The notes below the pieces were generated by a model. The model made no database searches. It was not told where the DNA came from and saw nothing but the letters and a program-made list of their open reading frames with translations. Of a stretch of DNA of 64,000 bases, positions 8,728 through 29,586 are shown in pieces. The stretch comes from Actinomycetota bacterium (GTDB lineage Bacteria > Actinomycetota > Coriobacteriia > Anaerosomatales > JAUXNU01). How positions within the stretch are numbered: the stretch's first letter is position 1; each line of letters begins with the position of its first letter. The translations under genes and the position numbers were made by a program. The stretch spans positions 1-64,000 of the forward strand of contig JAUXNU010000064.1 in NCBI GenBank assembly GCA_030682655.1, given 5' to 3'.

Positions 8728-10050
8728 CTAGGTTGCGGGTGGTTCGGACTCGGGCGCCGCGGGCGGCGACTCCCCGGCAGCCTTCCGCCCCCGTAGCGGC
8801 ATCGCTTCCATCACGAGGTCCATGATCGCCTTGACCTCGATGCCAAGGTCGAGCGACTCGTTGAGACCCTCCATCTGGAGTCGGCAGTTCTCGCACGGGC
8901 TGGCGATCAGCTTCGCGCCGGTGGCCTTGATCTGCGCCACCTTGATCGAGCCGCTCCTCAGGCGGAACTCGTCCATCTCCGAGATCGCCACAAGGCCGCC
9001 TCCACCGCCGCAGCACCACTGCTGCTCGCGGTTGGGTGTCATATCGCGGAAGTCCGGCGCGAGGGCCCGCACGATGTTGCGCGGCTGCTCGAAGATGCCT
9101 CCGTTGCGTCCGACCTGGCATGGGTCGTGGTACGTGATCGGCTCGGTGATCGCGCGCGGATCGACCGTGATGCGGCCGTCGGCTATGTACTCGTCGATGA
9201 CCTCGAGGATGTGGCGCACCCTGAACGGGTGCTTCTCGCCGCTCCACGCCTCATGGAAGATCTCTGCCACGCGGTAGGCGTGCCCGCACTCGGTGATGAC
9301 GACCTCCTTTACGCCGAGGCGCTTGGCCTCGTCCATGAATCGGTCGGCGATCTTGCGAGCCTTCACCGCATCGCCAAAGAAGTAGCCGTAGTTGGCAGCC
9401 TCGAACAGCGACAGCGTCCAGCTTGCCTTGGCCTGGTGGAAGATCGCCGCTGCGGGCAGGATCGAGTGCGCGCCGACGAGCGCGACATACAGGATGTCGG
9501 CACCCTCGCGGTCGACCGGGATCTCGGCGCTGGAATCGCCCGTGACCTCACGGAGCTGCGCCTCGATGTCACGGAAGCCGTCCACGATCACGTCGCGGAA
9601 CATCTCGAAGTTGTCGCTCTTGAACAGCGCCGCGTCGGCGAGCTGGCCGAGCATCTCGTTGCCCATGCCAGCGGCGATCAGTATCGCCTTTGCCACAGAA
9701 AGGATCCACGCCGTGTCGATCGAGAAGGGGCAGTAGTACATGCACCGGCGGCAGCCCGTGCACGCGTACGTGGACTCGTACAACTCCTCAAGTAGTCGCT
9801 CGTCCGGGTCGCGCGCCTCGTAGAGCGCGGGAACGAACTCTCCTGCCTTGGTGAAGTACTTCTTGTAGATCTGCCGGATGAGCTCTGCGCGCCGCGCGGG
9901 CAGGTACTTGAAGTCCTGCGTCGCGACGTACTGGTGGCAGGCGTCTTTGCAGATGGCGCAGCGCGCGCAGATGTCGAGATACTGCTTGAGCTGTCGGTTC
10001 ATCTTCTTGTCGATGACGCCGGCGAGCGTGGTGATCTGCTGGCTGTCCAT
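8728..10050 (-). CDS. HdrD/DsrK-like iron-sulfur oxidoreductase subunit
   Basis: A 440-residue cytosolic protein with two 4Fe-4S cluster motifs (CARCAICKDAC near residue 28 and CTGCRRCMYYCP near 97) and CCG-domain features: DPCQVGRNGG, then WCCGGGGG and SPCENC. In HdrD and DsrK this domain carries a catalytic cluster that reduces or forms disulfides or persulfides. The start is ATG 10050 with AGGAG 8 bases upstream, 1 base after the cytochrome b stop; a GTG at 10059 has no spacing for a ribosome site. Together with the membrane subunit it should form a quinone-linked HdrDE/DsrMK-like complex. The tusA and DsrE-like genes upstream suggest a sulfane-sulfur or thiol substrate (inference). Confidence 0.82.
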   Translation of the reverse strand: MDSQQITTLAGVIDKKMNRQLKQYLDICARCAICKDACHQYVATQDFKYLPARRAELIRQIYKKYFTKAGEFVPALYEARDPDERLLEELYESTYACTGCRRCMYYCPFSIDTAWILSVAKAILIAAGMGNEMLGQLADAALFKSDNFEMFRDVIVDGFRDIEAQLREVTGDSSAEIPVDREGADILYVALVGAHSILPAAAIFHQAKASWTLSLFEAANYGYFFGDAVKARKIADRFMDEAKRLGVKEVVITECGHAYRVAEIFHEAWSGEKHPFRVRHILEVIDEYIADGRITVDPRAITEPITYHDPCQVGRNGGIFEQPRNIVRALAPDFRDMTPNREQQWCCGGGGGLVAISEMDEFRLRSGSIKVAQIKATGAKLIASPCENCRLQMEGLNESLDLGIEVKAIMDLVMEAMPLRGRKAAGESPPAAPESEPPAT

Positions 10051-10051
10051 G

Positions 10052-10771
10052 CTACTCACTCCTCACCAGGTTGGCCGAGAAGGAGCCGATCGTGTGCACG
10101 AGCTTGCTGAACGGGAAGTAGATCAGGAACACGTCCGTGAACAGCATGTGCGTGCCGAGCGACCATCCGACGTTGGACGACAGGATCTCAGCGGGAATGA
10201 CGGGCTTGAAGGCGAGCAGGCTCGTGAACCACTCGCGGTAGGTCGCCGCGTGCACGTTGCCGAAGAACCGCATGTGGTCGCCCATGATGACCACGCCGAA
10301 GAGCAGAGCGAGCAACAGGTAGTCCTCGGGTACCGACAGCTGCTTGAACGGGCCGAACGTGCGCCTCGCGATCCAGAACACGATCGCCGCGAGCATGACG
10401 GTGCCCGCGATGCTGCCCGACCACGCCGCGAACGAGTTCATGCCCTCCTGCCCGAGGAGCTGCGGTAGTACCGGGAACTCGGCGATGAGCCGCCCGTGAC
10501 CAACGAACGCCCCGAGTGCGGCCACGTGGAACGCGAACGCGAACACCCACATGACGGGCTCGATGCGCGCTGACTGCGGCGCGATGAACGTGTCCTTCAG
10601 CATCTTGAAGAAGCGTCCGGTGCCTGTCTTCGGTTTCGGGAACAGCCCGAGCGGGACGGGGGACTTGGGCGTGGTCGCCCATTGGTAGATCCGCCATGCC
10701 ATGCCCACCACGAACACGCCGATCCCGAGATAGACGCCGATCACCGATGTGATGTAGAGGTAGGTCTCCAT
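10052..10771 (-). CDS. NarI/DsrM-like cytochrome b membrane subunit
   Basis: A 239-residue membrane protein with about five or six hydrophobic segments and histidines positioned for b-type hemes: AFHVAALGAFVGHGR, MGDHMRFFGNVHAA and SLGTHMLF. This matches the NarI/HdrE/DsrM gamma-subunit family, which exchanges electrons between the quinone pool and a cytosolic Fe-S partner. It lies directly upstream of the HdrD-like gene (1 base apart), so the pair likely forms one complex. The gene order arsR, DsrE-like, tusA, cytochrome b, Fe-S protein on one strand implies a sulfur-responsive operon. Confidence 0.82.
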   Translation of the reverse strand: METYLYITSVIGVYLGIGVFVVGMAWRIYQWATTPKSPVPLGLFPKPKTGTGRFFKMLKDTFIAPQSARIEPVMWVFAFAFHVAALGAFVGHGRLIAEFPVLPQLLGQEGMNSFAAWSGSIAGTVMLAAIVFWIARRTFGPFKQLSVPEDYLLLALLFGVVIMGDHMRFFGNVHAATYREWFTSLLAFKPVIPAEILSSNVGWSLGTHMLFTDVFLIYFPFSKLVHTIGSFSANLVRSE

Positions 10772-10796
10772 CGGTTGCCTTTCTCAGAGGAACGGA

Positions 10797-11039
10797 CTAC
10801 TTGACGCGCTTGACCAGGAAGACGAACTCGCCACCGACCTTCTCGGCCGAGATGACTTCGTTGCCGGTGCTCTTGGCCCACGCGGGGATGTCGGCCATCG
10901 AGCCGGGGTCGGTCGCGACGGCTTTGATGACGCCGCCGACTTCCACGTTGCTGATGTTCTGGCTGACTTTCACCATGGGCATTGGGCAAAGCAGGCCCTT
11001 CAGGTCGAGCTCCAGGTCAGCCTTGATCTCCTCGGACAT
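10797..11039 (-). CDS. tusA: TusA-family sulfur carrier protein
   Basis: An 80-residue SirA/TusA/YedF-type protein. The hallmark CPMP (Cys-Pro-x-Pro) lies near residue 18 in LDLKGLLCPMPMVKVS; this cysteine carries persulfide sulfur in the family. The start is ATG 11039 with AGGAG upstream; the in-frame extension upstream lacks a ribosome site. It is followed by the cytochrome b gene and preceded by a DsrE-like gene, a pairing known from sulfur-oxidising and sulfur-relay operons, where TusA and DsrE pass sulfur to or from a heterodisulfide-reductase-like enzyme. Here it probably feeds the HdrD-like complex (inference). Confidence 0.88.
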   Translation of the reverse strand: MSEEIKADLELDLKGLLCPMPMVKVSQNISNVEVGGVIKAVATDPGSMADIPAWAKSTGNEVISAEKVGGEFVFLVKRVK

Positions 11040-11108
11040 GTCGATCTCCTCTCGTTCGGCCACGCCAGGCGCGCGGCATCCGGTGGGTGCGGGCGAGCGT
11101 TGCGAGCG

Positions 11109-11618
11109 CTAGATGAACAGCTGCGAGTTGGCTTCCTGGGCCTTCATGAGGAAGAAGCCGACGCCAACCGGCTCCTGCACGCCGTCGATGAACGTGTCGC
11201 GCGGAATCTCCATGACGTCCATCGACATCTGGCAGGGGTAGAGTCCGACGCCAAGGGTGACGGCGAGGTCGCGTAGCTCGATGAGCTTCGAGACATTGTT
11301 CGCACCCATCATCTTCCCGAACATCCAGCGGCCCATCCCGCCGAAGCTGAACTGGCTCGGGTTGGACTTCGTGATGTCGCCGCCATACATGACGCCGAGC
11401 ATCTTTCCAAAGAGGGACTTGCCCGTTCGCACGTTCTTCTTGATCGCGCGCAACCCCCAGAAGGTGAAGAACATTGTCACCTCCATGCCCATCGCGGCTG
11501 CGCCCGTTGCGATGATGAACGCGCCAAAGAGCTTGTCCATATCGCCGCTCATCACAACCATCGCGAGCTTCTTCTTGTCGCCCCACTCTTGGATCTCTTG
11601 CTCTGTGATCTCAGGCAT
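11109..11618 (-). CDS. DsrE/DsrF/DrsH-like sulfur-transfer family protein
   Basis: A 169-residue DsrE-like (DrsE_2-type) protein. Visible blocks are LAMVVMSGDMDKLFGAFIIA at the N-terminus, the Gly/Met-rich middle (GMGRWMFGKMMG) and the conserved cysteine in GLYPCQMSMDVM near residue 122, which may accept persulfide sulfur. Two hydrophobic stretches reflect the fold rather than clear transmembrane helices. The start is ATG 11618 with AAGGAGGG upstream. It lies between arsR and tusA, consistent with a sulfur-relay unit. Confidence 0.8.
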   Translation of the reverse strand: MPEITEQEIQEWGDKKKLAMVVMSGDMDKLFGAFIIATGAAAMGMEVTMFFTFWGLRAIKKNVRTGKSLFGKMLGVMYGGDITKSNPSQFSFGGMGRWMFGKMMGANNVSKLIELRDLAVTLGVGLYPCQMSMDVMEIPRDTFIDGVQEPVGVGFFLMKAQEANSQLFI

Positions 11619-11684
11619 CGTGAGCCCTCCTTGGTAGTGCGGGGTAGTGCAACGAACCCTCTCAGGGGAGGGGGTCGCCAAGGC

Positions 11685-12026
11685 CTATTCGGTGTCGCCT
11701 TCCGAGCCGAGCGCTTCGCCGAGCGTGGTGTTCTGCGCGGCAAGCGCCTCCTGCATGACCTCTGTGATGAGGTCGAACGCCTGGATGATCTTTGGGTTCG
11801 CGATGGAGTAGTAGACGTTGGAGCCGTCACGCCGTGCGCGGACGACACCCTTGGTGCGCAAGATTGAGAGGTGCTGGGAGGCGTTGGCTTGCGTAAGCTC
11901 GGCGGTCTCGACAATCTGAGACACGGTGAGCTCCCCGTCGCGGAGCGCGCCAAGGATGCGCTGGCGTTTCTCGCTCGCCAGCGTCTTGCAGAGGTCTGAG
12001 TGCAGGCAGTAGAAGTCGTTCTGCAC
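11685..12026 (-). CDS. ArsR-family transcriptional regulator, 5' end altered by an IS insertion
   Basis: A 113-residue winged-helix repressor (LSILRTKGVVRARRDGSNVYY is the wing region). The N-terminal DFYCLHSDLC places two cysteines where a thiol or sulfur sensor could act. It is the first gene of the sulfur-relay operon. The present start is GTG 12026, and the IS target duplication begins at the very next base upstream. Removing the IS and one duplication restores an open frame back to ATG 14018, adding ten residues (MVAGSSKGLD). The protein may therefore have lost its original start, ribosome site and promoter. Whether the present copy is expressed cannot be told from the sequence. Confidence 0.78.
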   Translation of the reverse strand: MQNDFYCLHSDLCKTLASEKRQRILGALRDGELTVSQIVETAELTQANASQHLSILRTKGVVRARRDGSNVYYSIANPKIIQAFDLITEVMQEALAAQNTTLGEALGSEGDTE

Positions 12027-12034: not shown

Positions 12035-13988
12035 CGAAGTTACGTTGACCTGAGATAGGAATGCACCATCTGAGCTGCTGGATCGGCTGCGGACGGTGCT
12101 CGTCTTCTGGCTACAACAGCTTGGCGGGGACCGGGGCACCCAGCAGCTCGAAGGCGCGCCTCGCGGTCAGGCTGGGCTCCGACACCCTCTCGAAGGTCAC
12201 CGCGCCGGGTCCGTCCCCGACGCCGATCTCGTCTCGCACGAGGCAGGCCAGTTCGTCGAGCAGGTCCGTGAAGCCGAGCGCCGGCGCGTTCTCGCCCGTC
12301 GTCCGCCGTGACGCCTTCGCGAGCGCGCCTGCCGAGCGGACCGCAGGCGCGACGGGATCCTCTCTCGCGGGCGGCTCCTCGTCCGTGAACGTCAGAGGCG
12401 CCAGAGCGCGGCGCATGTGCCAGGCGACGTAGCAGGCGAGCATGCAGATGAGCACATGCGAGCGCACCCTGTCCTCGCGGTGATGGCGGACCGGACCGAC
12501 CTCGAGGTGTGTGGTCTTGAGGCTGCGGAAGTCCGCCTCCACGCGGGAGAGCGACTTGTAGGCGAGAACGACGCCCGCCGCGTCCATCTCGCCGGCTCCG
12601 ACCGATGTGCGGATGACGTAGACGCCGTCGAGCGCGGCCTCGGTGGCGATCCTCTTCTCGTTTCGAGAGAAGCGGAAGTCGTCGTCCGTGATCTCGATGT
12701 GGAAGTGCTTGCCCACACGGAAGCGATCGAGCACCTTCCCGACCGCGATTCCGATCCTGTCCGCCCCGCGCAGCGGGCGCGACGCGCGGGCCACGGAAGC
12801 GCGGACGCGGGCGAGCCTGGCCTCCGTGGCGCTGACGAGCTCCTCGCGCTTGCGGGCGCGCGTGATGGCCAGAGCGGGGTTGCGGCAGGCGACGAGCCGC
12901 TCACCGGGGTAGTCGGGATGGACGATCTCGGCCAGGTCCGACTCGTCGAAGAGCGACATCTGCAACGCGCCCGCGTCCGCGAGCACGCGTATGGACGGTG
13001 CGCGAAGCGAGGTGATCCAGCCCACGCCGCCCACGCGGCGCAGGTCATCGATGCGGGCCTTCGTGATCATGCCGCGGTCCCCCACCATGACGACGCTGTC
13101 GAGGCCGAAGCGGTCCTTGAGTTTGGTGACGGTGCCTTCGACGGTGGCCGGATCGGCCGTGTTGCCCGGATAGACCTCCACGGCGACCGGCCGCCCCTCG
13201 GCGTCGGTGGAGAGGCCGAACACGATCTGGGGCAGTTCGGGGTGGCCGTCGCGTGAGTGTCCGTGGGCGGCGAGAGGACAGCACCTGCCCTCCACATGCA
13301 CGCTCGTCACGTCGTGGAGGACCAGGCCACCGCGCGTGAGGTGGGAAGCCGCCAGCGCACCCTCGATCTCACCCTGTCTGGACAGCAGCCAGTCCATCGC
13401 CGCGTAGACCTCGTCGCTGGAGGCGCCCTCGACCCCCAGGTCCTGCCCCAGCGTGGTCCGTGCCCACCAGCGGGAGGTGGCCAGCTTGGAGCCCGGGCGC
13501 ACGACACGGGCCACCAGGAGCGCGAACGCCAGATCGCGCATCCGTGAGGCGGGACCGAGAAGCTCCGGGAAGCCGAGCGCGCGCGCCGCCGTCCACACGG
13601 CCGCTACGTGCCCGTGGGGACGCGAGCCGACGACCCGTATCCGTCCGATCGGGACGCACGCCTCCCCGGCGAGCGAGCACCTGACCGCCTCGATGGTCTC
13701 GGCGGGCAGGTGCGATATGTTGCCCAGCGTGCGATGGCGTACCTTGCCGCCCTCGCGGTAGGTCTGCCGCAGCAGCCAATACGTGTAGACGCGCTCACCG
13801 TGCTTGCGCTCTATCTTGGCTACATGTACTGCACCTGTCGCTCGCCTTCCCATGCCGCATACTCAAGCACATCCGCGTTTGGATGTCAACACCACTCCAC
13901 TATGACTCTTGGCTACATCCATGACCGTCAAGAAACCCATCCAAGCAGGTCAGGGTTCAAATCAGAGGAGCGCGGCGACGTAACTTCG
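12035..13988. mobile_element. IS1634-like insertion sequence, complete
   Basis: A 1954-bp element bounded by imperfect inverted repeats, CGAAGTTACGTtGaC at the left end (12035-12049) and its partner at 13974-13988; the outer 11 bases match perfectly. It is flanked by 8-bp direct repeats and contains one full-length transposase on the minus strand. Intact ends and duplication suggest a recent, possibly still mobile, insertion. It separates arsR from its upstream region. Confidence 0.85.
12111..13853 (-). CDS. IS1634-family (IS4-type DDE) transposase
   Basis: A 580-residue transposase that looks intact. N-terminal VRHRTLGNISHLPAETI matches IS1634/IS1549-type proteins. DDE candidates are the Asp in LHDVTSVHVEG, the Asp in VMVGDRGMI, and the Glu in LSRVEADFRSLK in the usual C-terminal Y-x-x-x-E context. 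Length fits the family (500-600). The start is assumed at ATG 13853 because no better ribosome site is seen. It catalyses DNA cut-and-paste of the surrounding element. It points in the same direction as the downstream sulfur operon, so read-through from the IS could drive arsR (inference). Confidence 0.9.
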   Translation of the reverse strand: MGRRATGAVHVAKIERKHGERVYTYWLLRQTYREGGKVRHRTLGNISHLPAETIEAVRCSLAGEACVPIGRIRVVGSRPHGHVAAVWTAARALGFPELLGPASRMRDLAFALLVARVVRPGSKLATSRWWARTTLGQDLGVEGASSDEVYAAMDWLLSRQGEIEGALAASHLTRGGLVLHDVTSVHVEGRCCPLAAHGHSRDGHPELPQIVFGLSTDAEGRPVAVEVYPGNTADPATVEGTVTKLKDRFGLDSVVMVGDRGMITKARIDDLRRVGGVGWITSLRAPSIRVLADAGALQMSLFDESDLAEIVHPDYPGERLVACRNPALAITRARKREELVSATEARLARVRASVARASRPLRGADRIGIAVGKVLDRFRVGKHFHIEITDDDFRFSRNEKRIATEAALDGVYVIRTSVGAGEMDAAGVVLAYKSLSRVEADFRSLKTTHLEVGPVRHHREDRVRSHVLICMLACYVAWHMRRALAPLTFTDEEPPAREDPVAPAVRSAGALAKASRRTTGENAPALGFTDLLDELACLVRDEIGVGDGPGAVTFERVSEPSLTARRAFELLGAPVPAKLL

Positions 13989-14783: not shown

Positions 14784-15296
14784 GTGATCGTATTGAGTGA
14801 ACCCACCACACGTACCAAGGCCCGCATGATCAAGTCGGGCATCATCGTCACGGCAGCAACCGCCGCCGTGGCCGCCGTGGTCGCGCTCGCTGGTGCCGCG
14901 CCGGTCATCGCGCCGGGAGCTGTCGCGCCGCATGGGTATCGGGGAACGTGTACGACCTGCCACACCTACTCGACTCCGGCGCCTGCGCCCGTACCCGACC
15001 CCATCCCGGTCGTCAACCCGGCTCCGGATCCGGCTCCCGTGCCCGATCTTGTCGTGACCCCCGCACCGAACCCCGGTCACGATGCCGACGACCAGGGTGT
15101 CGAAGATGCCGATGACCAGGGCGCCGACGAGGCCGATGACCAGGGCGCCGACGAGGCCGATGAGGCCGATGAGGCCCATCAGTCGAGCGGCTCCGGCGAG
15201 ATGTCCCGGACTCGCACCGGCACGCGCGACGGCATGGGGAGCATGACCGACGGCGAGCACGCCCGCGAGCAGGACGGCGACCACAACGACGACTAG
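14784..15296 (+). CDS. Secreted or membrane-anchored monoheme protein with acidic repeat tail
   Basis: A 170-residue protein. A signal/anchor segment (about residues 17-46, Ala/Val-rich) is followed by one c-type heme motif, CTTCH, in a setting (PHGYRGTCTTCH) like the short monoheme magnetochrome-type domain. Then come a proline-rich linker (PAPAPVPDPIPVV) and an Asp/Glu-rich tail built from repeated ADDQGADEADEA-type units. The heme should lie outside the cell. The start is uncertain: GTG 14784 is only 1 base from AAGGGAG, while TTG 14793 has better spacing. The acidic tail could bind cations or a partner cytochrome. No family name is certain. Confidence 0.65.
   Translation: MIVLSEPTTRTKARMIKSGIIVTAATAAVAAVVALAGAAPVIAPGAVAPHGYRGTCTTCHTYSTPAPAPVPDPIPVVNPAPDPAPVPDLVVTPAPNPGHDADDQGVEDADDQGADEADDQGADEADEADEAHQSSGSGEMSRTRTGTRDGMGSMTDGEHAREQDGDHNDD
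15081..15176 (+). repeat. In-frame tandem repeat in the monoheme gene
   Basis: Degenerate in-frame repeats of 24 and 9 bases (units around gatgaccagggcgccgac and gatgaggcc) encode the Asp/Glu-rich tail. Two near-identical 24-base copies lie at 15111-15134 and 15135-15158. Copy number is likely variable between strains. Confidence 0.7.
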
Positions 15297-20541: not shown

Positions 20542-21555
20542 TCATCGAGCTATCAGCGGCGCGTGGCATCCGGCGCAAAACGTCGTGACGTGGCATTCGA
20601 AGCACGCTGCGGCCCCCGACTTCGTGACCGCCTGCGGATGCTGCGCGAGCCACGAGCCGTTCGCCGGGTTGTACGCCTTGTGGTGGCAGGTCCTGCAGAA
20701 GTCCGGGTTGGTGCCATGACACCGCTCGCACACGAGCCGGTTCTTCACGGCGACCGGTCCATGGACCTTTCGGCCGTCAGTCCAATGCTCGGGATGGGGC
20801 ATCTCCAGTCCGTGACACGTGTCGCACATGCTCGCCTCGTGGCACATGAGGCAGAGGCTGCGGTCTGCCTTGGCCAGCTCATTGTGGGCGGTCTTCCACT
20901 TCGCCGCCTTGTGCGTCTCGGGGCGCATGTTGAACGACGGCGGGTGGCACACTTCGCAGTCGCCGGGCGCCTTGGCGTCGCTCTCATGGCTGTGGCACGT
21001 GAAGCACTGCAGCATCAGCAGAAGCGGCCGCTCGGCTCCGGGATCGAAGTGCACCGTCCACACGTGACACGAGATGCATGACTTGTTCCGCTCCGCGTGC
21101 TCCTCGTGGTCGATGAGCGTCCCGTAGCGGATGGTGACTGCGCGCCCGGGCGTGTGGCACTGCTCGCAGTTCGAGTCGGGGACGGTGACGGAGGTCTCGA
21201 GCGATTCGCCGACGGTTTCCCCGGCACCGAGGGTGAAGTGCGCCCTCACGTCGCGAGAAAGCCGGCTTGCGCGTACGGCCATTGTCTTCGGAAAGCCGTA
21301 CCAGGGTTGAGGCGCCTCGTGGCAGGCGGGGCAGCCGACCTGGGCGTGCGGGGATATCTTCCACGATTCCACCTGCGGCGCGATCTCGTGACAGCCCCCA
21401 CACAGCCGAGGAGAGGCCGTTGCGCGGTAGAACCCGAATCCGAGCGCGACGACAGCGACCGCGATCGCTGTCGTGATCCACGCTCTGCGGATGAGGATGT
21501 GCCGCGCGTCGGGTGATGTGCTTTCCATCTGGGCCGTCCTGGGTATCAGACTCAT
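20542..21555 (-). CDS. Dodecaheme cytochrome c with NapC/NirT-like N-terminus
   Basis: A 337-residue protein with one N-terminal membrane segment (about residues 25-46) and twelve CxxCH motifs: CGGCH, CPACH, CEQCH, CISCH, CFTCH, CEVCH, CLMCH, CDTCH, CERCH, CRTCH, CFECH and CAGCH. The first two are spaced as in NapC/NirT quinol-oxidising cytochromes (SWKISPHAQVGCPACHE). It is likely anchored with its hemes outside the membrane. It is divergent from the NrfD/multiheme operon, with 253 bases between. It could take electrons from menaquinol or pass them outward (inference). ATG 21555 or ATG 21528 could be the start. Confidence 0.88.
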   Translation of the reverse strand: MSLIPRTAQMESTSPDARHILIRRAWITTAIAVAVVALGFGFYRATASPRLCGGCHEIAPQVESWKISPHAQVGCPACHEAPQPWYGFPKTMAVRASRLSRDVRAHFTLGAGETVGESLETSVTVPDSNCEQCHTPGRAVTIRYGTLIDHEEHAERNKSCISCHVWTVHFDPGAERPLLLMLQCFTCHSHESDAKAPGDCEVCHPPSFNMRPETHKAAKWKTAHNELAKADRSLCLMCHEASMCDTCHGLEMPHPEHWTDGRKVHGPVAVKNRLVCERCHGTNPDFCRTCHHKAYNPANGSWLAQHPQAVTKSGAAACFECHVTTFCAGCHAPLIAR

Positions 21556-21808
21556 GGAACCTTGAAGCGAGTCGGTCGTTGATGAGCCTGACGCTACTCC
21601 GCGTTTTGGCTACGTCAAGAGCCTCTCGCGCTGGGTATGGCCGTTCGTGCAGGGCGCTAACGGAACCCTAAACAAACGTGAATCGTGTGCCAAACTCCTA
21701 ACCCGATTCCAACGCCATACTCATATCAGGCCCTTTCGTCCCAACGCGATTCGCACATATTCGCTCGCCGTGGGCGCGAAAGACCCAACACGATCGGTAG
21801 GAGAGAGC

Positions 21809-22513
21809 ATGGCCGGATCAGAGTCTCGTTCACTCGCCCGCCGTGCCAGGGCGGCCCTGGTGCGACCGCGCGTCGCGTGCGCGATCCTTGCGGCTATCGT
21901 GATCGCCCTGTGGTCGGCGACGCCCGCAATCGCGGGACAGGCGTCCTCGGGCGAGTTGTTGTTTTACCCGTGCACGAGCTGCCACCCGGTGACCCTGCAG
22001 CCCGGCACCGACAAGCCCACGCGCAAGCTCCCTGGCGACTTCCCGGGACACGAGATCGTGCTTGTCGGTCACGACGTCCTTGGCGAGGGGGATGCGGCGT
22101 GTCTTGTCTGCCACGACGACCCGGCCAAGGACCCCGGCAAGCTCAAGCTCATCGACGGCAGCCTCATCGACATCACCGGCGATACCGCGAAGGTCTGCTA
22201 CCGGTGCCACTCGGCCAAGTACAACGAGTGGATGGCGGGGACGCACGGCAAGCACAAGCCCACGTGTACCGCCGCCGGATGCCACGACCCTCACTCGCCG
22301 AGATGGATCTACGCCGAATCGCTGCCGCCCTTTGTGGGCAGCGGCTTCCAGTTCAAGGCCCTGTCCGGTCGTGAACCGTTCACGCCTCTCGCGCCGCCCG
22401 CGCCGGCGCCTCCGACAGAGGTGCCGCAGTTGTTCCTGATCGCGGTCGTGCTGGGAGTCGTGGCGGCAGCGGCCCGGGTCGCTGGACTCGTCCGAGGAAG
22501 GCCGAACCGATGA
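21809..22513 (+). CDS. Tetraheme cytochrome c with C-terminal membrane anchor
   Basis: A 234-residue protein with a signal peptide (about residues 18-42), CTSCH, CLVCH and CYRCH motifs, and a fourth unusual CTAAGCH (CX4CH) motif followed by DPHSP. A proline-rich linker leads to a C-terminal membrane helix (about 208-228). It resembles NapC/cytochrome c3-like modules that open NrfD-type complexes. The start is ATG 21809 with GGAG upstream; an in-frame extension to 21647 is unlikely. It overlaps the ferredoxin gene by 4 bases (ATGA). It probably hands electrons between the Fe-S/NrfD subunits and the larger cytochromes. Confidence 0.85.
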   Translation: MAGSESRSLARRARAALVRPRVACAILAAIVIALWSATPAIAGQASSGELLFYPCTSCHPVTLQPGTDKPTRKLPGDFPGHEIVLVGHDVLGEGDAACLVCHDDPAKDPGKLKLIDGSLIDITGDTAKVCYRCHSAKYNEWMAGTHGKHKPTCTAAGCHDPHSPRWIYAESLPPFVGSGFQFKALSGREPFTPLAPPAPAPPTEVPQLFLIAVVLGVVAAAARVAGLVRGRPNR

Positions 22514-23460
22514 GCCACAAGAAGCCGCGCATCGCGCGCGTGGAGCCCGCGTCCGCCGATGCGCCCGCGCGTGCCGGGGAGCCCCGCATCACGGTGACCC
22601 GGCGCTCGCTTCTCGAAGGCCTTGGCGCGACGGCTGGAATCCTCGCCGCCGGCGTGATCCCCGCTTTCCTGACCGCACTGCCCGCGTCCGGGTCGGAAGC
22701 CTCGAGCGAAGGCGCGAACACCGAGGTGCCCGGCGCGTCCGAGACCGGCATCGATCGCTTCGTCGAGGAGAACGGCCCCGTGAACTACCCGGGCAAGCCC
22801 GTCTCCTACGCCGATCCCGCCGGCGATGAGAAGTGGGCGATGGTCATCGACGTGAAGGCCTGCGTGGGATGCCGCAAGTGCGTCTACGCGTGCGTGAAGG
22901 AGAACAACATAGGGCGGACGTCCGGCTTCACATACATCCAGGTGCTCGAGATGGAGCTGGGCTCCAACGAACTCGAGCTTGGCACTCTCAAGTACGAGCA
23001 GGGCGGTCGCCCGGACAAGTGGTACCTGCCGATCCAGTGCATGCACTGCGCGAAGCCGACCTGTGTCTACGGCTGTCCCGTCAAGGCGACGTGGAAGGAG
23101 CCGGACGGCATCGTCGTCATCGACTACGACAAGTGCATCGCGTGCCGCAATTGCCTCGTCACGTGCCCCTACGACGCACGCCAGTTCAACTGGGTCGAGC
23201 CGGAGGTTCCCAAGAACGAGGTGAACCCCCTGGTTCCACTCGAGGAGAAGGCCGGAGTCGTGGAGAAGTGCACGTTCTGCGTGCAGCGCACGCGCAACGG
23301 GAAGACGACCGCGTGCGTTGAGGCGTGTCCCGTCGGTGCGCGCACGTTCGGTGACCTGAACGATTCCGAGAGCGATGTGGCGCAGATTCTCAGGACCAGG
23401 CGATCGTTCCGCCTGAAGGAAGAGCTCGGCAACGAGCCCGCGATTTGGTACGTGGGGTGA
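22510..23460 (+). CDS. Four-cluster ferredoxin-like subunit, Tat-exported (DsrO/NrfC-like)
   Basis: A 316-residue protein. A Tat signal with RRSLLEGLGATAG (about residues 31-45) precedes four cysteine groups: CVGCRKCVYAC, CMHCAKPTCVYGC, CIACRNCLVTC and CTFCVQRT with CVEACP. These bind four 4Fe-4S clusters as in DsrO, NrfC, PsrB and QrcC. Tat export places it on the outer face of the membrane next to the NrfD-type subunit. It has no catalytic molybdenum partner in this locus, so it is likely an electron wire between quinone and cytochromes, as in Qrc or ACIII complexes (inference). Confidence 0.9.
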   Translation: MSHKKPRIARVEPASADAPARAGEPRITVTRRSLLEGLGATAGILAAGVIPAFLTALPASGSEASSEGANTEVPGASETGIDRFVEENGPVNYPGKPVSYADPAGDEKWAMVIDVKACVGCRKCVYACVKENNIGRTSGFTYIQVLEMELGSNELELGTLKYEQGGRPDKWYLPIQCMHCAKPTCVYGCPVKATWKEPDGIVVIDYDKCIACRNCLVTCPYDARQFNWVEPEVPKNEVNPLVPLEEKAGVVEKCTFCVQRTRNGKTTACVEACPVGARTFGDLNDSESDVAQILRTRRSFRLKEELGNEPAIWYVG

Positions 23461-23474
23461 TTGAGGTGGCCCTT

Positions 23475-24683
23475 GTGACGACACCCCGCCCCGGCGTGAA
23501 GCACTTCATCGGTCTCGACTTCGACCTCGGTGCTCTGCGCAGCGCGGGCTCGAGGTACTGGCAATGGGTGGCTCTCCTCGGCATCTTCTTGGGGCTCGGC
23601 GCGGCCTCGTGGTACCTGCTGTTCTCGCACGGCGGCGAAGTGCTGAACCAACGCGATTCGAGCCCTTGGGGCCTGTGGTTCACGAACTACATGTACTACG
23701 TCGGACTCGCGGCGGGCGGACTGATCGTCTACGCGAGCGTGCATCTGTTCGGGGCCGAGCAGTTCCGACCGCTGTCGCGCATCGCGGTCTTGCTGGCCGG
23801 CGTGATCGTGATGATGGCGCTCCTCGGCATCATCACCGACATGGAACGTCCGTGGCGTGCGGTCTGGATGATGCTCACGCCGAACCCGACCTCGCCGTTC
23901 GTCTACACCGGTTCGGCAGCGGGTCTCTACATGGTCATCTGCTTCGTTGATCTGTGGATCCTGATCACCGGCGTCGGCGGCGAGAAGCTGGCTCGCAGGA
24001 TGACGCTCATCGCGCTTCCCGCAGCTATTCACATGCACACCACGACCGCGTTCGTGCTGTCGATGAACAAGTCGCGGGAGCTATGGCACACCGCGATGAT
24101 GGTGCCGATCTTCCTGACTTCGGCGACAGCTTCGGGTGTGGCCCTGCTCCTGGTCGTCGCCTACATCATGCAGGCGACGACGGACCTGAAGTTCAAGTCG
24201 AGCATGTTCCGGAGTCTCGCGACCTTGCTCGCGACCGTCATCATCATCGACCAGTTCTTGCTGGCGGTCGAAGTGCTTTCGGTCTACTGGCCGACCTCGG
24301 CCATGACGGGTCACGTGTTCCGCTTCGACCAGTTCCTCACCGGGCGTCTCGCATGGGCGTTCCTGCCCGTGTTCATCCTCGGGATGACCGCGTTCGCGTT
24401 GCTGGCGCGGCGCTCGACCCGCCACCTGCCGAGGGTGCAGATCACCGCCTCGGTCCTGTACGTGATCGCGGTGTTCTTCAAGCGCTACTCACTCATGGCG
24501 ATGGGCTTCTCGGTCAGCACGCTCGGACAGAAGGCGCCGATCTACTTCCCAAGCATGGTCGAGGCGTTCCTCGCGCTCGGGATTCTCGCCTTCGGCATGC
24601 TGTTCTTCACGGTGGTGTCGAAGCTGCTGCCGATGGAGGTTCCCGAGGAGGAGCACACGCTCGAGGCAGGGGTGGCGTCGTGA
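23475..24683 (+). CDS. NrfD/PsrC-type quinone-interacting membrane subunit
   Basis: A 402-residue integral membrane protein with about nine or ten hydrophobic helices, of the NrfD/PsrC family, which oxidises or reduces menaquinol and pairs with a four-cluster Fe-S subunit. Typical blocks are SSPWGLWFTNYMYYVGLAAGG and FLTGRLAWAFLPVFILG. The start is placed at GTG 23475 with GAGGTG upstream, 14 bases after the ferredoxin stop. Its stop overlaps the next cytochrome start. It provides the link to the menaquinone pool that the mqn genes in this window help make. Confidence 0.9.
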   Translation: MTTPRPGVKHFIGLDFDLGALRSAGSRYWQWVALLGIFLGLGAASWYLLFSHGGEVLNQRDSSPWGLWFTNYMYYVGLAAGGLIVYASVHLFGAEQFRPLSRIAVLLAGVIVMMALLGIITDMERPWRAVWMMLTPNPTSPFVYTGSAAGLYMVICFVDLWILITGVGGEKLARRMTLIALPAAIHMHTTTAFVLSMNKSRELWHTAMMVPIFLTSATASGVALLLVVAYIMQATTDLKFKSSMFRSLATLLATVIIIDQFLLAVEVLSVYWPTSAMTGHVFRFDQFLTGRLAWAFLPVFILGMTAFALLARRSTRHLPRVQITASVLYVIAVFFKRYSLMAMGFSVSTLGQKAPIYFPSMVEAFLALGILAFGMLFFTVVSKLLPMEVPEEEHTLEAGVAS

Positions 24684-25699
24684 GCCCGCGCATCGTCGAT
24701 AGCCTGTCCGCGCGCGTCCGCTCACTGCCCCGCGTCGTCGTGTGGGCCGTCGCCGCGGTTCTCGGCGCGATCGTCCTCTCGGTCGTGGTCGCGCTCGCGA
24801 TGACCTCGCGACCGGCGTTCCTTGGCGGGTATCACAGCCTGGAGGACAACTACGCGTCGCTGCAGGCGTCCGCGCACAGCGAGCTGACCTGCGGACAGTG
24901 CCACGTCGACCCGCGCGGACCGATCGTCTCCGAGGCCGTGCTGGTGGGTGAGTTCTATCGCGGCCTGTACTCCAAGCCCGACGCACCGGCGTTCGTGCGG
25001 CTCAAGACGCCGACCCGCGACGCGTGCCTCTCGTGTCACCGCAACGACTGGAGTCAGGACGCGTCCAGGACCGCGAACGTGCCGCATCCTGCGCACCTGC
25101 GCGTGGCCGACGAGCCGCGCGACTGCGTGGAGTGCCACAAGTGGACGGCGCACGAAGAGGACTACATCGAGCGGCACAAGCAGATGCCGTTCAGTACCGT
25201 GTGCGCGTCGTTCGGTTGCCATGTGGGCTGGAAGACGGCCGACGAATGCGGCACCTGCCATCACTCGCTGCAGGAGGACAAGGGAGAGTGGCGACTCATC
25301 CACAAGAAGACCGTCCAGGAGGCGGGACCGAACGGGTGCCTGGAGTCGTGCCATGACGCGGACCAGTGCCGTCTCTGCCACACGACGGGCAAGGTCCCTG
25401 ACTTCTCCACCTCCGCGCTGACTGCAAGCGTCAAGGCCATCGAGCGAGATCACGTGAAGCCGGACTGGCTCGAGAAGCACGGTACCACGGCGCTGAAAGA
25501 TGACTCGAAGTGCTTCGCATGCCACGTGTCGACAGGCGAGTGCGACGACTGCCACGCGCGACGTCCGGCATTCCACGGTCTGGAGTCCACCTGGTTGACG
25601 CGTCACAAGGACCTGTCCAAGGACGAGCGCCGGTGTCTCACGTGTCACGAGAAGAAGTGGTGCGAGGATTGCCACGACGAGTTCAAGAAGAACAGCTAG
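24680..25699 (+). CDS. Multiheme cytochrome c, up to 11 hemes, with unusual CX3CH and CX4CH sites
   Basis: A 339-residue protein with one N-terminal membrane helix (about residues 14-37) and nine CxxCH motifs (CGQCH, CLSCH, CVECH, CGTCH, CRLCH, CFACH, CDDCH, CLTCH, CEDCH). It also has CASFGCH (CX4CH) and CLESCH (CX3CH), so up to 11 hemes. The start is GTG 24680, overlapping the NrfD stop (GTGA); the stop overlaps the next start. It is related to the two cytochromes that follow (same TM-heme layout and a shared xxLExCHDxxQ-type block). Predicted location: membrane-anchored, outside. The final electron acceptor is unknown. Confidence 0.86.
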   Translation: MSPRIVDSLSARVRSLPRVVVWAVAAVLGAIVLSVVVALAMTSRPAFLGGYHSLEDNYASLQASAHSELTCGQCHVDPRGPIVSEAVLVGEFYRGLYSKPDAPAFVRLKTPTRDACLSCHRNDWSQDASRTANVPHPAHLRVADEPRDCVECHKWTAHEEDYIERHKQMPFSTVCASFGCHVGWKTADECGTCHHSLQEDKGEWRLIHKKTVQEAGPNGCLESCHDADQCRLCHTTGKVPDFSTSALTASVKAIERDHVKPDWLEKHGTTALKDDSKCFACHVSTGECDDCHARRPAFHGLESTWLTRHKDLSKDERRCLTCHEKKWCEDCHDEFKKNS

Positions 25700-26544
25700 T
25701 GGACGACCGCGACGATACGACGTCCGGCGACGGCGATACGACCGCGACGCCCGACAGCGACGCGACGCCGAAGCGGAAGCGACGCTTCCCGGCTAAGACC
25801 GCGATCGCGCTCGTCGTCATCGTGCTCATCGGCCTGCCGATCTTCTCGATGCTGCAGCCTGGCTACTACGGGCGCTACCCGGAGTTGCGCGAGCGCATGG
25901 ACAACTGGCGCGTCTCGACGCACGCCCGCATCCCGTGTTCCGGCTGCCACGTCGATCCCGGAGTCCGCGGCTTCCTGACGTTCACTGTGAAATCGATCCC
26001 GGCGTTCTACTCCCAGCTCATCCGGGGTCCTCACGAGACCAACCTCCTGAGCGTGCCGGACCGGGAGGCATGCCAGAAATGCCACACGAGCTACCGCCAG
26101 GTCTCGGCCAACGGCGACCTGTTCATCCCGCACAAGGCCCACGTCGAGGTCCTCGAGATCAACTGCGCGGTCTGTCACCAGGACCTCGTGCACTCAGCCA
26201 ACACCAAGGGCTACAACTCGCCCGAGATGATCGGGTGCCTCAAGCAGTGCCACGACGGCACGCAAGCGACGGCAGAGTGCGTCAAGTGCCACACGCGCAA
26301 GGAAGTGCCGGAAGGCCACCGTGCCAAGGACTGGCTCGAGGTCCACAGCACGCAGGTCAAGACCGTGGACTGCGGCTCGTGCCATGCATGGTCGCCGGAC
26401 TACTGCGCCGAATGCCACGCGAAGCGACCGGCATCGCACGTCGGCAACTGGAAGAAGGCTCACCAGTACGCCGCCGAGAAGAGCAGCGACAAGCGGTGCC
26501 CGGTCTGCCACGACGAGAAGTTCTGCCAGGACTGCCACGACTGA
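25699..26544 (+). CDS. Multiheme cytochrome c, 8 CxxCH plus one CX3CH
   Basis: A 281-residue protein. An N-terminal Asp/Thr-rich cytosolic tail is followed by one membrane helix (about residues 33-52), then CSGCH, CQKCH, CAVCH, CLKQCH (CX3CH), CVKCH, CGSCH, CAECH, CPVCH and CQDCH. The start is GTG 25699, sharing a base with the upstream TAG stop. It aligns heme for heme with the 26582 protein (GDLxIPHKAHVxxL, then HDGxQA, then SCHAW), where the CX3CH position is a normal CLECH. Likely a membrane-anchored electron carrier of the same complex. Confidence 0.86.
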   Translation: MDDRDDTTSGDGDTTATPDSDATPKRKRRFPAKTAIALVVIVLIGLPIFSMLQPGYYGRYPELRERMDNWRVSTHARIPCSGCHVDPGVRGFLTFTVKSIPAFYSQLIRGPHETNLLSVPDREACQKCHTSYRQVSANGDLFIPHKAHVEVLEINCAVCHQDLVHSANTKGYNSPEMIGCLKQCHDGTQATAECVKCHTRKEVPEGHRAKDWLEVHSTQVKTVDCGSCHAWSPDYCAECHAKRPASHVGNWKKAHQYAAEKSSDKRCPVCHDEKFCQDCHD

Positions 26545-26581
26545 CGGGTAGCAGGCTCGCCTCGCTGCCCAAGGAGGAACG

Positions 26582-27475
26582 GTGTCGGAAGCGCACAACA
26601 GACCACGGCGGAAGCCGAGGAGGACGCTCTCGGATCGTATGCGCGACCTGGCGCATATGAGCCCTGAGCGTCGCCGATCGCTCATGTTCCGGGGCGTCGC
26701 TGCCCTTGCGATCACGGTGCTCGTCCTCATCCCCGGCTACCTGAGCTCGCGACCCGTCTTCTTCCAGCGCTACGCGAACACACAGGCCCAGTACCGGACG
26801 TGGACCGAATCGGTGCACGCGAAGGTGCCGTGCCAGAGCTGCCATGTCTCGCCCGGGCTCGTGGCTCAGACGGAGTTCGGCGCCACGATGCTCGGCGAGT
26901 TCTACATCTCGAGGGTGCTTCGCTCCAGGGAGCCGAAGATCCTCGGCACGCCAGCCAACGCGGCGTGCGAGAGGTGCCACATCGACCTGCGGACCGTCTC
27001 TCCGTCGGGCGACCTCAACATCCCGCACAAGGCGCACGTCGATATCCTCAAGGTGCGCTGCGTGAAGTGCCACGAGTTCCTCGTGCACGAGCTGAGCCCG
27101 GAAGGCAAGCACACGCCTCGGATGCTCCTGTGCCTGGAGTGCCACGACGGGGATCAGGCCAAGGACGCGTGCTCGACGTGCCACACGCAGAAGTCGGTTC
27201 CGGCGAACCATCGGAAGGCGGACTGGCTCATCGTGCACCCGGACAAGCAGGCGGAACTCGACTGTGCGAGCTGCCATGCCTGGACCGAGGACTGGTGTGT
27301 CGAGTGCCACTCACGGCGCCCGGTGTCGCATGTTGCGAAATGGCGCAGCAAGCACGGCGCGGCCGTCGAGCAGCGACGCAACTGCGAGGCGTGTCATGCG
27401 GCGGACTTCTGTGTGCGCTGCCACGGCGAGGTGCCGAAGCTGAACTTCGATCCGGCGCTGAAGCTGGTGGAGTAG
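26582..27475 (+). CDS. Nonaheme cytochrome c, paralog of the preceding gene
   Basis: A 297-residue protein. A basic N-terminus and one membrane helix (about residues 37-55) are followed by nine CxxCH motifs: CQSCH, CERCH, CVKCH, CLECH, CSTCH, CASCH, CVECH, CEACH and CVRCH. The start is GTG 26582 with AAGGAGG upstream. It is the last gene of the cytochrome operon, 37 bases after its paralog. Shared spacing and blocks (SGDLNIPHKAHVDIL, DCASCHAW) indicate tandem duplication. Role: electron transfer on the outer face; acceptor unknown. Confidence 0.88.
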   Translation: MSEAHNRPRRKPRRTLSDRMRDLAHMSPERRRSLMFRGVAALAITVLVLIPGYLSSRPVFFQRYANTQAQYRTWTESVHAKVPCQSCHVSPGLVAQTEFGATMLGEFYISRVLRSREPKILGTPANAACERCHIDLRTVSPSGDLNIPHKAHVDILKVRCVKCHEFLVHELSPEGKHTPRMLLCLECHDGDQAKDACSTCHTQKSVPANHRKADWLIVHPDKQAELDCASCHAWTEDWCVECHSRRPVSHVAKWRSKHGAAVEQRRNCEACHAADFCVRCHGEVPKLNFDPALKLVE

Positions 27476-27526: not shown

Positions 27527-28753
27527 TTAGAACCCCCGAACCGGCCGGTAGAGCGTGTCGCGCTGCATCGGCCGGAAGCCGGCGTCGCTGATCAGTCGCA
27601 CGAGTTCGTCGCGCGCGAGCATGAAGTGCGTGCCGGCGGCCGCGACAACGTTCTCCTCGATCATCGTCGAGCCCATGTCGTTGGCGCCGAACGTGAGCGC
27701 CACTTGGCCGATCTTCGCGCCCTGGGTGACCCAGCTTGCCTGGATGTTCTCGATGCTGTCGAGGTAGAGGCGCGAGACGGCGAGCGTGCGCAGGTAGTCC
27801 CAGCCGCTTGCAGCGGCAAGTGGGACGCCGGCCGCGGCGGCTTCGTCCTCGGCCAGCTCGGTGTTGCCGGGCTGGAACGACCAGGGGATGAAGGCGCGGA
27901 AGCCGACGTGCCCGCCTGCGACCGCCTCGTCCTGCACCTCGCGCACGCGGCGCATGTGCTCTATGCGTTCGGGACGCGTCTCGAGGTGGCCGAACATCAT
28001 CGTCGCGGTCGTGGAGATGTCGAGTTGGTGCGCATCGCGCATCACGTCGAGCCACTGGTCGGACGTCGCCTTGCGCGGCGAGACGTGACCCCGCACGCGG
28101 TCGACGAGGATCTCGGCGCCGCCGCCCGGCAGCGAGTCGAGGCCGGCGTCGCGCAGCCGCGCCAGCACGTCGCGCGGGGGCAGGGCGGAGAGTCGCGAGA
28201 GGTGCCAGACCTCCGGCGGACCGAAGCCGTGCACGTGGATCGGATAGCGGGCCTTCAGCTCGCGGAGCATCTCTTCGTACCACTGGAGAGGCAGGCCGGG
28301 ATGCATGCCGCCCTGGAGCAGGATGGCGGTACCTTCGAGGTCGAGCGTCTCCTGGACCTTGGCGTAGAGCTCGTCGGGTTCGAGCACGTAGGCCTCGGGC
28401 GAGTCCGCGTCGCGATAGAACGCGCAGAACGTGCAGCCGCTCACGCACATGTTCGTGTAGTTGATGTTGCGGTCGACGATGAAGGTGACCTCGCGCTCGG
28501 GGTGCAGCCGGTCGCGCATCGCGCTTGCCGCGGCCGCGAGATCGAGCATGTCGGCCGAGGAGAGAAGCAGCAGCGCCTCGTCCTCGGTCAGCCGGTGCTC
28601 GCCGAGCGCGGCAGCGAACGCAAGCACGCTGGCGGTTGCGGCGGCGGGGTCGGTAGGGGTCGACGGCGAGTTCCGCAGCGAAGGCGCGTCAGCGCCGAAG
28701 CGAGGACTGCTCGAGCCGGCATCCCCTGCCGGCACTGACGCCTGCAAGCTCAC
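27527..28753 (-). CDS. mqnC: Cyclic dehypoxanthinyl futalosine synthase (MqnC)
   Basis: A 408-residue radical SAM enzyme of the futalosine menaquinone route; it cyclises dehypoxanthinyl futalosine. The cluster motif is CVSGCTFCAFYR, with the MqnC-type blocks LLQGGMHPGLPLQWYEE and FIPWSFQPGNTEL. The start is GTG 28753 with GGAGG upstream, overlapping the mqnA stop (GTGA). The first 45 or so residues are a low-complexity extension before the conserved domain. It forms an operon with mqnA; the SAM-dependent partner mqnE is 9 kb away beyond the R-M genes. Confidence 0.9.
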   Translation of the reverse strand: MSLQASVPAGDAGSSSPRFGADAPSLRNSPSTPTDPAAATASVLAFAAALGEHRLTEDEALLLLSSADMLDLAAAASAMRDRLHPEREVTFIVDRNINYTNMCVSGCTFCAFYRDADSPEAYVLEPDELYAKVQETLDLEGTAILLQGGMHPGLPLQWYEEMLRELKARYPIHVHGFGPPEVWHLSRLSALPPRDVLARLRDAGLDSLPGGGAEILVDRVRGHVSPRKATSDQWLDVMRDAHQLDISTTATMMFGHLETRPERIEHMRRVREVQDEAVAGGHVGFRAFIPWSFQPGNTELAEDEAAAAGVPLAAASGWDYLRTLAVSRLYLDSIENIQASWVTQGAKIGQVALTFGANDMGSTMIEENVVAAAGTHFMLARDELVRLISDAGFRPMQRDTLYRPVRGF

Positions 28754-29586
28754 GCGTCCTCCCCGAAGATGCGGACGGTCGGCACGTCGTCGAGCTGGTC
28801 GATTGCGGCCGCCTCGGAGAGGTAGCGCGCCAGCCCCTCGCGGTACTGCGGTTCGAAGCGGAAGACGAGCGCGTCGAAGTAGCTGCGGAAGTACGCGACC
28901 GGGAACGACTCCCAGCGCGCGGCGTATTCGGAGATCGCGTCGAGGTTGGCGCGGCAGTAGGCGAGCGAGCCGTTGAGCGCGTCGGCAACGCCGCGGACGG
29001 CGTCGGGGTTCTCCTCGGCAAAGGTGCGGCGCACCGCCCACACGGCGTAGACCATCGGCAGGCCGGTCCACTCGGTCCAGACGGCGCCGAGGTCGTATCT
29101 CAGCAGGTCGGACGGCTGCCAGTAGGCGCGCAAGGCGTCATCGCCGATCAGCAGCGCGGCGTCGGCCTCGCGCATCATTCCGGCGAGGTCCGACGGCATC
29201 TCGACGTAGTCCGGGAACACACTCCAGTGCTTCGCGAGCAGGATCCGGGCGAGCACCTGGGAGGTGCGCGAGGCGTTCGTGAGGGCGACCGTGCGGCCGT
29301 CGAGACCTTCGACGGGCTCCTTGGCGAGCAGGAGGATCGACTGGACTTCGCCGTCGGAGGAGATCGCGATGTCGGGGAGCAGCACGAAGTCGTCGGCGTG
29401 GCGCGCGTATTCGATGCTCGGAATCGGTGCGATGTCGAGCTCGCCGTCGAGGAGCGCGGTTGCGAGGTCGGCGGGGTTGGCCTTCACGAGATCGACGTCG
29501 AGGAGCACGTCGTTCTTTACGAGGCCGTAGTAGAGCGGAAGGCAGTTAAGGAATTGGATATGTCCGAGTTTAGGCCGTGGCATCAT
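28750..29586 (-). CDS. mqnA: Chorismate dehydratase (MqnA)
   Basis: A 278-residue MqnA/MqnD-family protein with a periplasmic-binding-protein fold that dehydrates chorismate to 3-enolpyruvoyl-benzoate. Typical blocks are LGHIQFLNCLPLYYGL at the start, ELDIAPIPSIEYAR, and DGRTVALTNASRTSQVLARILL. No signal peptide, as expected for a cytosolic enzyme. It overlaps mqnC by 4 bases. The R-M operon begins 167 bases upstream on the opposite strand. Confidence 0.9.
   Translation of the reverse strand: MMPRPKLGHIQFLNCLPLYYGLVKNDVLLDVDLVKANPADLATALLDGELDIAPIPSIEYARHADDFVLLPDIAISSDGEVQSILLLAKEPVEGLDGRTVALTNASRTSQVLARILLAKHWSVFPDYVEMPSDLAGMMREADAALLIGDDALRAYWQPSDLLRYDLGAVWTEWTGLPMVYAVWAVRRTFAEENPDAVRGVADALNGSLAYCRANLDAISEYAARWESFPVAYFRSYFDALVFRFEPQYREGLARYLSEAAAIDQLDDVPTVRIFGEDA

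Follow-up and report, generated by a model that had tools for sequence, protein, structure and literature searches.

An order-restricted cluster of NrfD, ferredoxin and multiheme cytochromes in Anaerosomatales that may pass menaquinol electrons to the cell exterior

Seven genes at positions 20542-27475 of a 64,000-nucleotide stretch of DNA from an Actinomycetota bacterium of the order Anaerosomatales (assembly GCA_030682655.1, contig JAUXNU010000064.1; the whole stretch is called the window below) encode five multiheme cytochromes, an exported ferredoxin and an NrfD-type membrane protein. The cluster is probably a menaquinol:multiheme-cytochrome oxidoreductase that feeds extracellular electron transfer. 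A sequence-only reading of the window had proposed a menaquinol-to-exterior conduit; the quinol module and a genome rich in multiheme cytochromes support this in part, while we infer export to the exterior, the direction of flow and its acceptor. All seven open reading frames were confirmed:

cytL, 20542..21555, minus strand: 337 aa, 12 CxxCH motifs, N-terminal membrane anchor and NapC/NrfH-type N-terminal domain
cyt4, 21809..22513, plus strand: 234 aa, tetraheme (3 CxxCH and one CX4CH), signal peptide, C-terminal membrane helix by hydropathy
fdx, 22510..23460, plus strand: 316 aa, Tat-exported ferredoxin of the DsrO/QrcC/NrfC type with 16 Cys for four [4Fe-4S] clusters
nrfD, 23457..24683, plus strand: 408 aa, NrfD/DsrP-type integral membrane quinone subunit with ten predicted helices
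cytA, 24680..25699, plus strand: 339 aa, membrane-anchored, 11 heme sites (9 CxxCH, one CX3CH and one CX4CH)
cytB, 25699..26544, plus strand: 281 aa, membrane-anchored, 9 heme sites (8 CxxCH and one CX3CH)
cytC, 26582..27475, plus strand: 297 aa, membrane-anchored, 9 CxxCH

The five cytochromes together carry 45 heme sites, 41 of the CxxCH type and four of the CX3CH or CX4CH type, in agreement with the earlier count of up to 45 sites around an NrfD/ferredoxin core. Because 41 of the 43 CxxCH motifs found in all six frames of the 64-kb window fall inside these five genes, a chance origin of the motifs is excluded. The best start of cyt4 is the ATG at 21809, which adjusts the earlier reading, and this gene occupies the place that DsrJ or NrfB holds in related operons. 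Four plus-strand junctions overlap (ATGA, GTGA, GTGA and TAGTG), which suggests that the plus-strand genes form one translationally coupled operon.

All heme Cys and His residues, including those of the CX3CH and CX4CH sites, are invariant across homologues (19-23 sequences per family), and this invariance supports the four atypical sites as real. The 4 sites and 4 distal His of cyt4 are retained in 23 homologues, as are the 11 sites and 11 distal His of cytA, also in 23. In cytB (22 homologues) and cytC (21 homologues), each with 9 sites, 8 distal His and one Met are conserved; in cytL (19 homologues) the 12 invariant sites are accompanied by 11 conserved distal His, and all three proteins keep a Met that lies outside the motifs. 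Conserved distal His therefore match 42 of the 45 hemes in number; for the remaining hemes, a single one in each of cytB, cytC and cytL, the candidates are conserved Met or His that are mostly conserved. Judged from these motifs, the ligand make-up is that expected of bis-His electron-transfer cytochromes, as in electron wires. Similarly, the ferredoxin, whose twin-arginine motif reads TRRSLL, retains 16 invariant Cys and such a motif in every homologue examined.

A search for related loci returned 16, with NrfD 65-79% identical, to which more were added from within the order. These 16 all come from metagenome-assembled genomes or uncultured assemblies (Actinobacteria, Actinomycetes or Coriobacteriia), with no isolate among them. 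Because codon-based gene calling missed some cyt4, cytC and cytL genes, tblastn was used to establish their presence. All 20 complete loci share the order cyt4-fdx-nrfD-cytA-cytB-cytC, and three more loci are cut by contig ends. The position of cytL varies: it lies downstream and co-directional in 12 loci, divergent in five and in the window, upstream in one, and is absent from two. The divergent transcription units described by the sequence-only reading are thus real in the window, but a divergent cytL was rejected as a defining feature of the cluster, since the gene lies downstream in most relatives.

The taxonomic distribution is narrow. In a 400-genome sample of the class, orthologues of NrfD (main piece scoring 380 bits or more) are confined to the window's own order; the next matches reach 314 bits in two genomes of a family of the same order (f7), after which scores drop below 192 bits. 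No orthologue outside the order was found among 297 genomes of a phylum sample. Within the 69 genomes of the order, nrfD occurs in 30 and cytA in 30, with 29 genomes holding both, one holding each alone and 38 holding neither (p=3.7e-17, a value that is only indicative, the genomes being related and not independent). In the two mismatches, nrfD lies at a contig end (G136) or cytA is partial (G074). From this co-occurrence it follows that the cluster is one heritable unit, patchily spread within the order.

The family assignments place the core among NrfD/DsrO-type quinol modules. The nrfD product matches Pfam NrfD at 115.6 bits (cut-off 25.8) and cytL matches Cytochrom_NNT (NapC/NirT) at 39.8 bits, above the gathering cut-off of 24.1; the ferredoxin carries Fer4 domains and the remaining cytochromes C7/c3 motifs. 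In NCBIfam, the ferredoxin matches DsrO best (191.1 bits, cut-off 200), followed by QrcC (155.3), ArrB and TtrB, NrfC (118) and HmcB (110), and NrfD matches DsrP best (136.9 bits, cut-off 350). Because every NCBIfam equivalog score falls below its cut-off, the cluster does not qualify as any of the named complexes. An AlphaFold2 model of NrfD (moderate confidence, with a pLDDT of 64) shows ten long helices and resembles ActC of alternative complex III (ACIII; TM score 0.68-0.74) more closely than ActF, the ACIII paralogue of ActC that does not bind quinone (PMC8076601). In our alignment, the invariant R343 of NrfD appears to lie near the gate position on transmembrane helix 8 discussed in a review of these proteins (PMC8076601).

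The cytochromes other than cyt4 are related to one another. cytL, cytA, cytB and cytC are paralogues at 24-41% identity, with cytB and cytC the 41% pair, and cytA, cytB and cytC align with cytL from its second NapC heme, seemingly lacking the quinol-side heme. For cytL, the NrfH model TIGR03153 scores 50.3 bits, below its cut-off of 134.2, and the sole credible PDB match is NrfH (2j7a_C, E 7.8e-8). A CxxCHxM first heme of the NrfH type is kept in 17 of 19 cytL homologues. The AlphaFold model of cytC (pLDDT 62) was too weak for a meaningful fold search.

Genomic neighborhood analysis revealed no terminal reductase consistently beside the cluster, either in the window or in 23 relatives in which the larger neighbours were scanned. 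A reductase consistently adjacent in relatives had been named beforehand as an outcome that would refute the sequence-only reading, and for the orthologues no such outcome was seen; distant homologues of the core do adjoin an octaheme nitrite reductase or a molybdoenzyme, as described below. The larger neighbours are mostly housekeeping genes, the exceptions being a CCP/MauG peroxidase (L016) and a cell-wall-binding CWB2 protein (L004), and 12-heme proteins of the MtrC type in the vicinity of the cluster at two loci (L005 and L008). Neither hydrogenase nor molybdoenzyme was seen beside the cluster in the 23 relatives, and no molybdopterin large subunit (QrcB/ActB, CISM type) lies in or beside it; the three molybdopterin matches of the genome are all on other contigs. 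No porin-like gene was found in the cluster, and none of the seven proteins carries a CxxCK motif or a Cytochrom_C552 domain (motif scan, Pfam).

Two menaquinone genes flank the cluster on the minus strand:

mqnC, 27527..28627, minus strand: menaquinone synthesis by the futalosine route, convergent with the cluster (TIGR03699, 471.7 bits, cut-off 428.1)
mqnA-type menaquinone biosynthesis gene, 28750..29586, minus strand (PF02621, 258.3 bits, cut-off 26)

MqnE of the same route is also present in the window. The adjacency of mqnC to the cluster supports menaquinone as the donor pool.

The genome (2.94 Mb in 221 contigs, 97% complete, 4.6% contamination) is rich in multiheme cytochromes. CxxCH-coding patterns number 485, against 186 in a reversed control, and at least 29 multiheme genes are present (28 listed and cytB added by hand), a lower bound drawn from searches and fetched stretches of the genome. 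Several large multiheme proteins, including ones of 1371 and 1061 aa, carry MtrC-type domains with Ig-like or FG-GAP repeats; one large MtrC-type protein adjoins a CWB2 protein, and a ResB gene sits between two multiheme genes. No Omp85 was found in the genome, in keeping with the monoderm host that the sequence-only reading had assumed. Elsewhere in the genome, a multiheme protein truncated at a contig end (1150 aa or more) bears 36 CX2-4CH motifs and has ResB just upstream (L057:10605-14054, plus strand). A gene run on contig C54 (L046:5505-18665, plus strand) encodes a formate-dehydrogenase-like protein with an in-frame TGA of the selenocysteine type, a ferredoxin, a 6-heme cytochrome, a CWB2 protein and a 1061-aa, 14-heme FG-GAP protein.

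The sister family f7 provides further evidence on what the core does. Its operon (L044:7449-12399 and L045:3624-8289, both minus strand) encodes a triheme cytochrome 37-39% identical to cyt4, a ferredoxin that scores above the DsrO cut-off (208.4 bits), an NrfD 39-40% identical to that of the window, and then a 660-690-aa protein that matches octaheme nitrite reductases (PDB 2ot4, E 4.2e-24) and has CxxCK as its fourth motif. This C552-type enzyme occurs only in the f7 relatives, where it replaces cytA, cytB, cytC and cytL. The comparison supports a swapped outlet, in which the same cytochrome-ferredoxin-NrfD core would deliver to a nitrite reductase in one family and to four cytochromes in the other. 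Since f7 must draw on quinol to reduce nitrite, the comparison also favours electrons running outward through the core. A different actinobacterial family (L070:7331-14429 and L071:6215-13176) has a gene run in which NrfD, a ferredoxin and a 12-heme cytochrome of distant likeness to cytL are joined by a molybdoenzyme, a 7-heme cytochrome and a NarJ-type chaperone.

Comparably built quinol modules are known from Geobacter, as Cbc4 (cbcSTU, with CbcT the DsrO homologue), and from Shewanella, as SirCD, which replaces CymA (PMC11434368). Like the present cluster, both combine a DsrO-like ferredoxin with an NrfD-type or equivalent membrane subunit, have no catalytic molybdoprotein and serve respiration or extracellular electron transfer; Cbc4 also includes a c-type cytochrome (PMC11434368). 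Unlike these diderm systems, which have at most one cytochrome subunit, the cluster encodes five cytochromes that together hold 45 hemes; four of the five are NapC-related paralogues, and the genome is one without Omp85. In Methanoperedenaceae, menaquinone:cytochrome c oxidoreductase groups 4 and 5 combine NrfD, an FeS protein and multiheme cytochromes without a reductase (PMC7327174), and growth on an electrode upregulates one Methanoperedens cluster of NrfD, FeS protein and cytochromes with 7 hemes (PMC10874420). The likeness drawn here to these archaeal clusters concerns their composition. Since Cbc4, SirCD and the Methanoperedens NrfD clusters lack a catalytic unit (PMC11434368, PMC7327174), the earlier statement that such cores are normally tied to one was too strong, although its recognition of an NrfD/DsrO-type quinol module holds.

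Comparison with other complexes sets the cluster apart in several ways. It shares the cytochrome-ferredoxin-NrfD gene order and the best NCBIfam matches with the JOP part of DsrMKJOP, yet both scores stay below their cut-offs (191.1 against 200 and 136.9 against 350 bits), cyt4 has 4 heme sites in place of 3, and there is no coupling to DsrMK or DsrAB. It differs from NrfABCD in lacking an NrfA-type catalytic cytochrome, from Qrc, ACIII and the CISM complexes (Psr, Ttr, Arr) in having no molybdopterin or molybdenum subunit beside it, and from MtrCAB-type porin-cytochrome conduits in the missing porin and Omp85. cytL resembles NapC, NrfH and CymA in its N-terminal domain but has eight extra hemes. 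What the cluster shares with the reductase-free NrfD quinol:cytochrome oxidoreductases is an NrfD, an exported four-cluster ferredoxin and multiheme c cytochromes in one operon. Since on the preferred reading it works like Cbc4, SirCD and the Methanoperedens clusters, the kind of system is already known, and what is new here is an order-specific form of it. The first isolates of the order (OPB41/Anaerosomatales) have 17-18 multiheme cytochromes, and one is an obligate Fe(III) reducer; NrfD is unmentioned in that report (PMC9686372). No open-access paper was found that joins NrfD, multiheme cytochromes and Coriobacteriia.

In the proposed mechanism, menaquinol would bind to NrfD at the cytoplasmic membrane's outer face, and its electrons would move by way of the ferredoxin's four [4Fe-4S] clusters to the tetraheme cyt4. 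The next carriers would be the four anchored NapC-related cytochromes, whose 41 hemes may serve outside the membrane as a wire or as an electron reservoir, followed by other extracellular cytochromes and an outside acceptor such as Fe(III), an electrode, humics or a partner cell. cytL, with its NapC/NrfH-type first heme, may be a second entry point for quinol. We infer that the seven products form one complex, as well as the direction of its electrons and its final acceptor. A bolder and decidedly tentative version is a seven-subunit, 45-heme monoderm assembly that combines quinol oxidase and trans-wall wire in one, in which the four duplicated NapC-related cytochromes would replace the nitrite-reductase outlet of the sister family and energy would be conserved at NrfD.

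Several observations weigh against the proposed mechanism. Four anchored proteins with 9-12 hemes each would probably be too small to bridge a thick cell wall unaided, and no fixed extracellular partner was found with an MtrC-like profile: a giant MtrC-like cytochrome was rejected in this role, being present in 19 of 30 genomes with the cluster and 26 of 39 without it (p=0.8). The pocket His139 of ActC corresponds to an invariant Ala in this NrfD family (our reading of a hidden Markov model alignment); reviewed NrfD-type proteins show no common quinone-binding pattern (PMC8076601). In the window's cytL, Ile replaces the NrfH-type heme-1 Met of 17 of 19 homologues. In the NrfD tree, f7 comes out as sister of the window's family with modest branch support (86/79), and the branches that meet there are long.

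An inward flow, from a cytochrome reduced by hydrogenase or formate dehydrogenase, from Fe(II) or from a partner cell through the cytochromes to menaquinone, as in Qrc, Hmc and Nhc, is unlikely, though it has points in its favour. The Qrc and Hmc models match the ferredoxin (QrcC 155 bits, HmcB 110 bits), the formate-dehydrogenase-like molybdoenzyme and six-heme cytochrome of contig C54 could supply electrons although unlinked, and NrfD complexes that generate and that consume electrochemical potential are both known (PMC8076601). It is opposed by the nitrite reductase that accompanies the related f7 core and requires outward flow, by the NrfD fold, nearest ActC of the quinol-oxidising ACIII, and by the lack of hydrogenase and molybdoenzyme beside the cluster in the 23 relatives.

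Somewhat less probable still is that the cluster feeds an unlinked dedicated soluble reductase of sulfur, nitrogen or metalloid compounds instead of an extracellular acceptor. Homologous cores elsewhere do accompany an octaheme nitrite reductase or a molybdoenzyme, and the genome has its three molybdopterin matches; none of these enzymes is linked in the orthologous loci looked at, the two profiles tried (DsrK-like and MtrC-like) gave no fixed partner, and five cytochromes with 45 hemes would far exceed the need of a single soluble reductase.

The two remaining explanations are very improbable. In a split DsrMKJOP, cyt4, fdx and nrfD would be DsrJ, DsrO and DsrP, completed by a DsrM/DsrK-like pair at 8728-10771 and linking cytoplasmic thiol/disulfide chemistry with the quinone pool; no named family scores better than DsrO and DsrP, and DsrK-like (292.6 bits, cut-off 400) and NarI/DsrM-like proteins lie 10 kb off, but the profile largely refutes the idea (DsrK-like in 15 of 30 cluster-bearing and 26 of 39 other genomes, p=0.22), the DsrK-like gene sits in an operon of its own in a genome without DsrAB, and relatives show no DsrMK linkage. 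That one large cytochrome is itself a nitrite, sulfite or hydroxylamine reductase, as are NrfA, ONR and MccA, would fit the NrfD, ferredoxin and catalytic multiheme plan of NrfABCD and MccACD (PMC8076601) and the fact that a single heme in each of cytB, cytC and cytL has no invariant distal His, but is contradicted by the lack of CxxCK and Cytochrom_C552 and by the conserved Met or near-conserved His candidates for those hemes.

How electrons of the quinone pool pass through thick Gram-positive-type walls is still poorly known. For that passage, the menaquinol:multiheme-cytochrome oxidoreductase proposed here offers a concrete seven-gene candidate, conserved and restricted to one order, with a likely regulator pair in most relatives, and the natural swap between a nitrite reductase and four cytochromes on the same core makes the direction of the module testable. 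The pair is a two-component system (OmpR-type regulator and HAMP/PAS kinase) that flanks the cluster together with a gene of about 190 aa (weak DUF7670 match), for example at L006:5009-8188 (minus strand), and is likely its regulator; this group has no counterpart beside the window's cluster.

Three further features of the window were observed. At 8728-12026 (minus strand) lies an ArsR-DsrE2-TusA-DsrM-like-DsrK-like operon, possibly a sulfur-carrier to quinone module; NIR_SIR/DsrAB was not found in the genome, and DsrK-like orthologues occur in 41 of the 69 genomes of the order. An IS1634-family transposase (12111-13853, minus strand) separates this operon from the cytochrome cluster. At 14784-15296 (plus strand), a small secreted protein with a single CxxCH matches the Pfam magnetochrome family MCR (31.8 bits, cut-off 30.4) and ends in an acidic repetitive tail.

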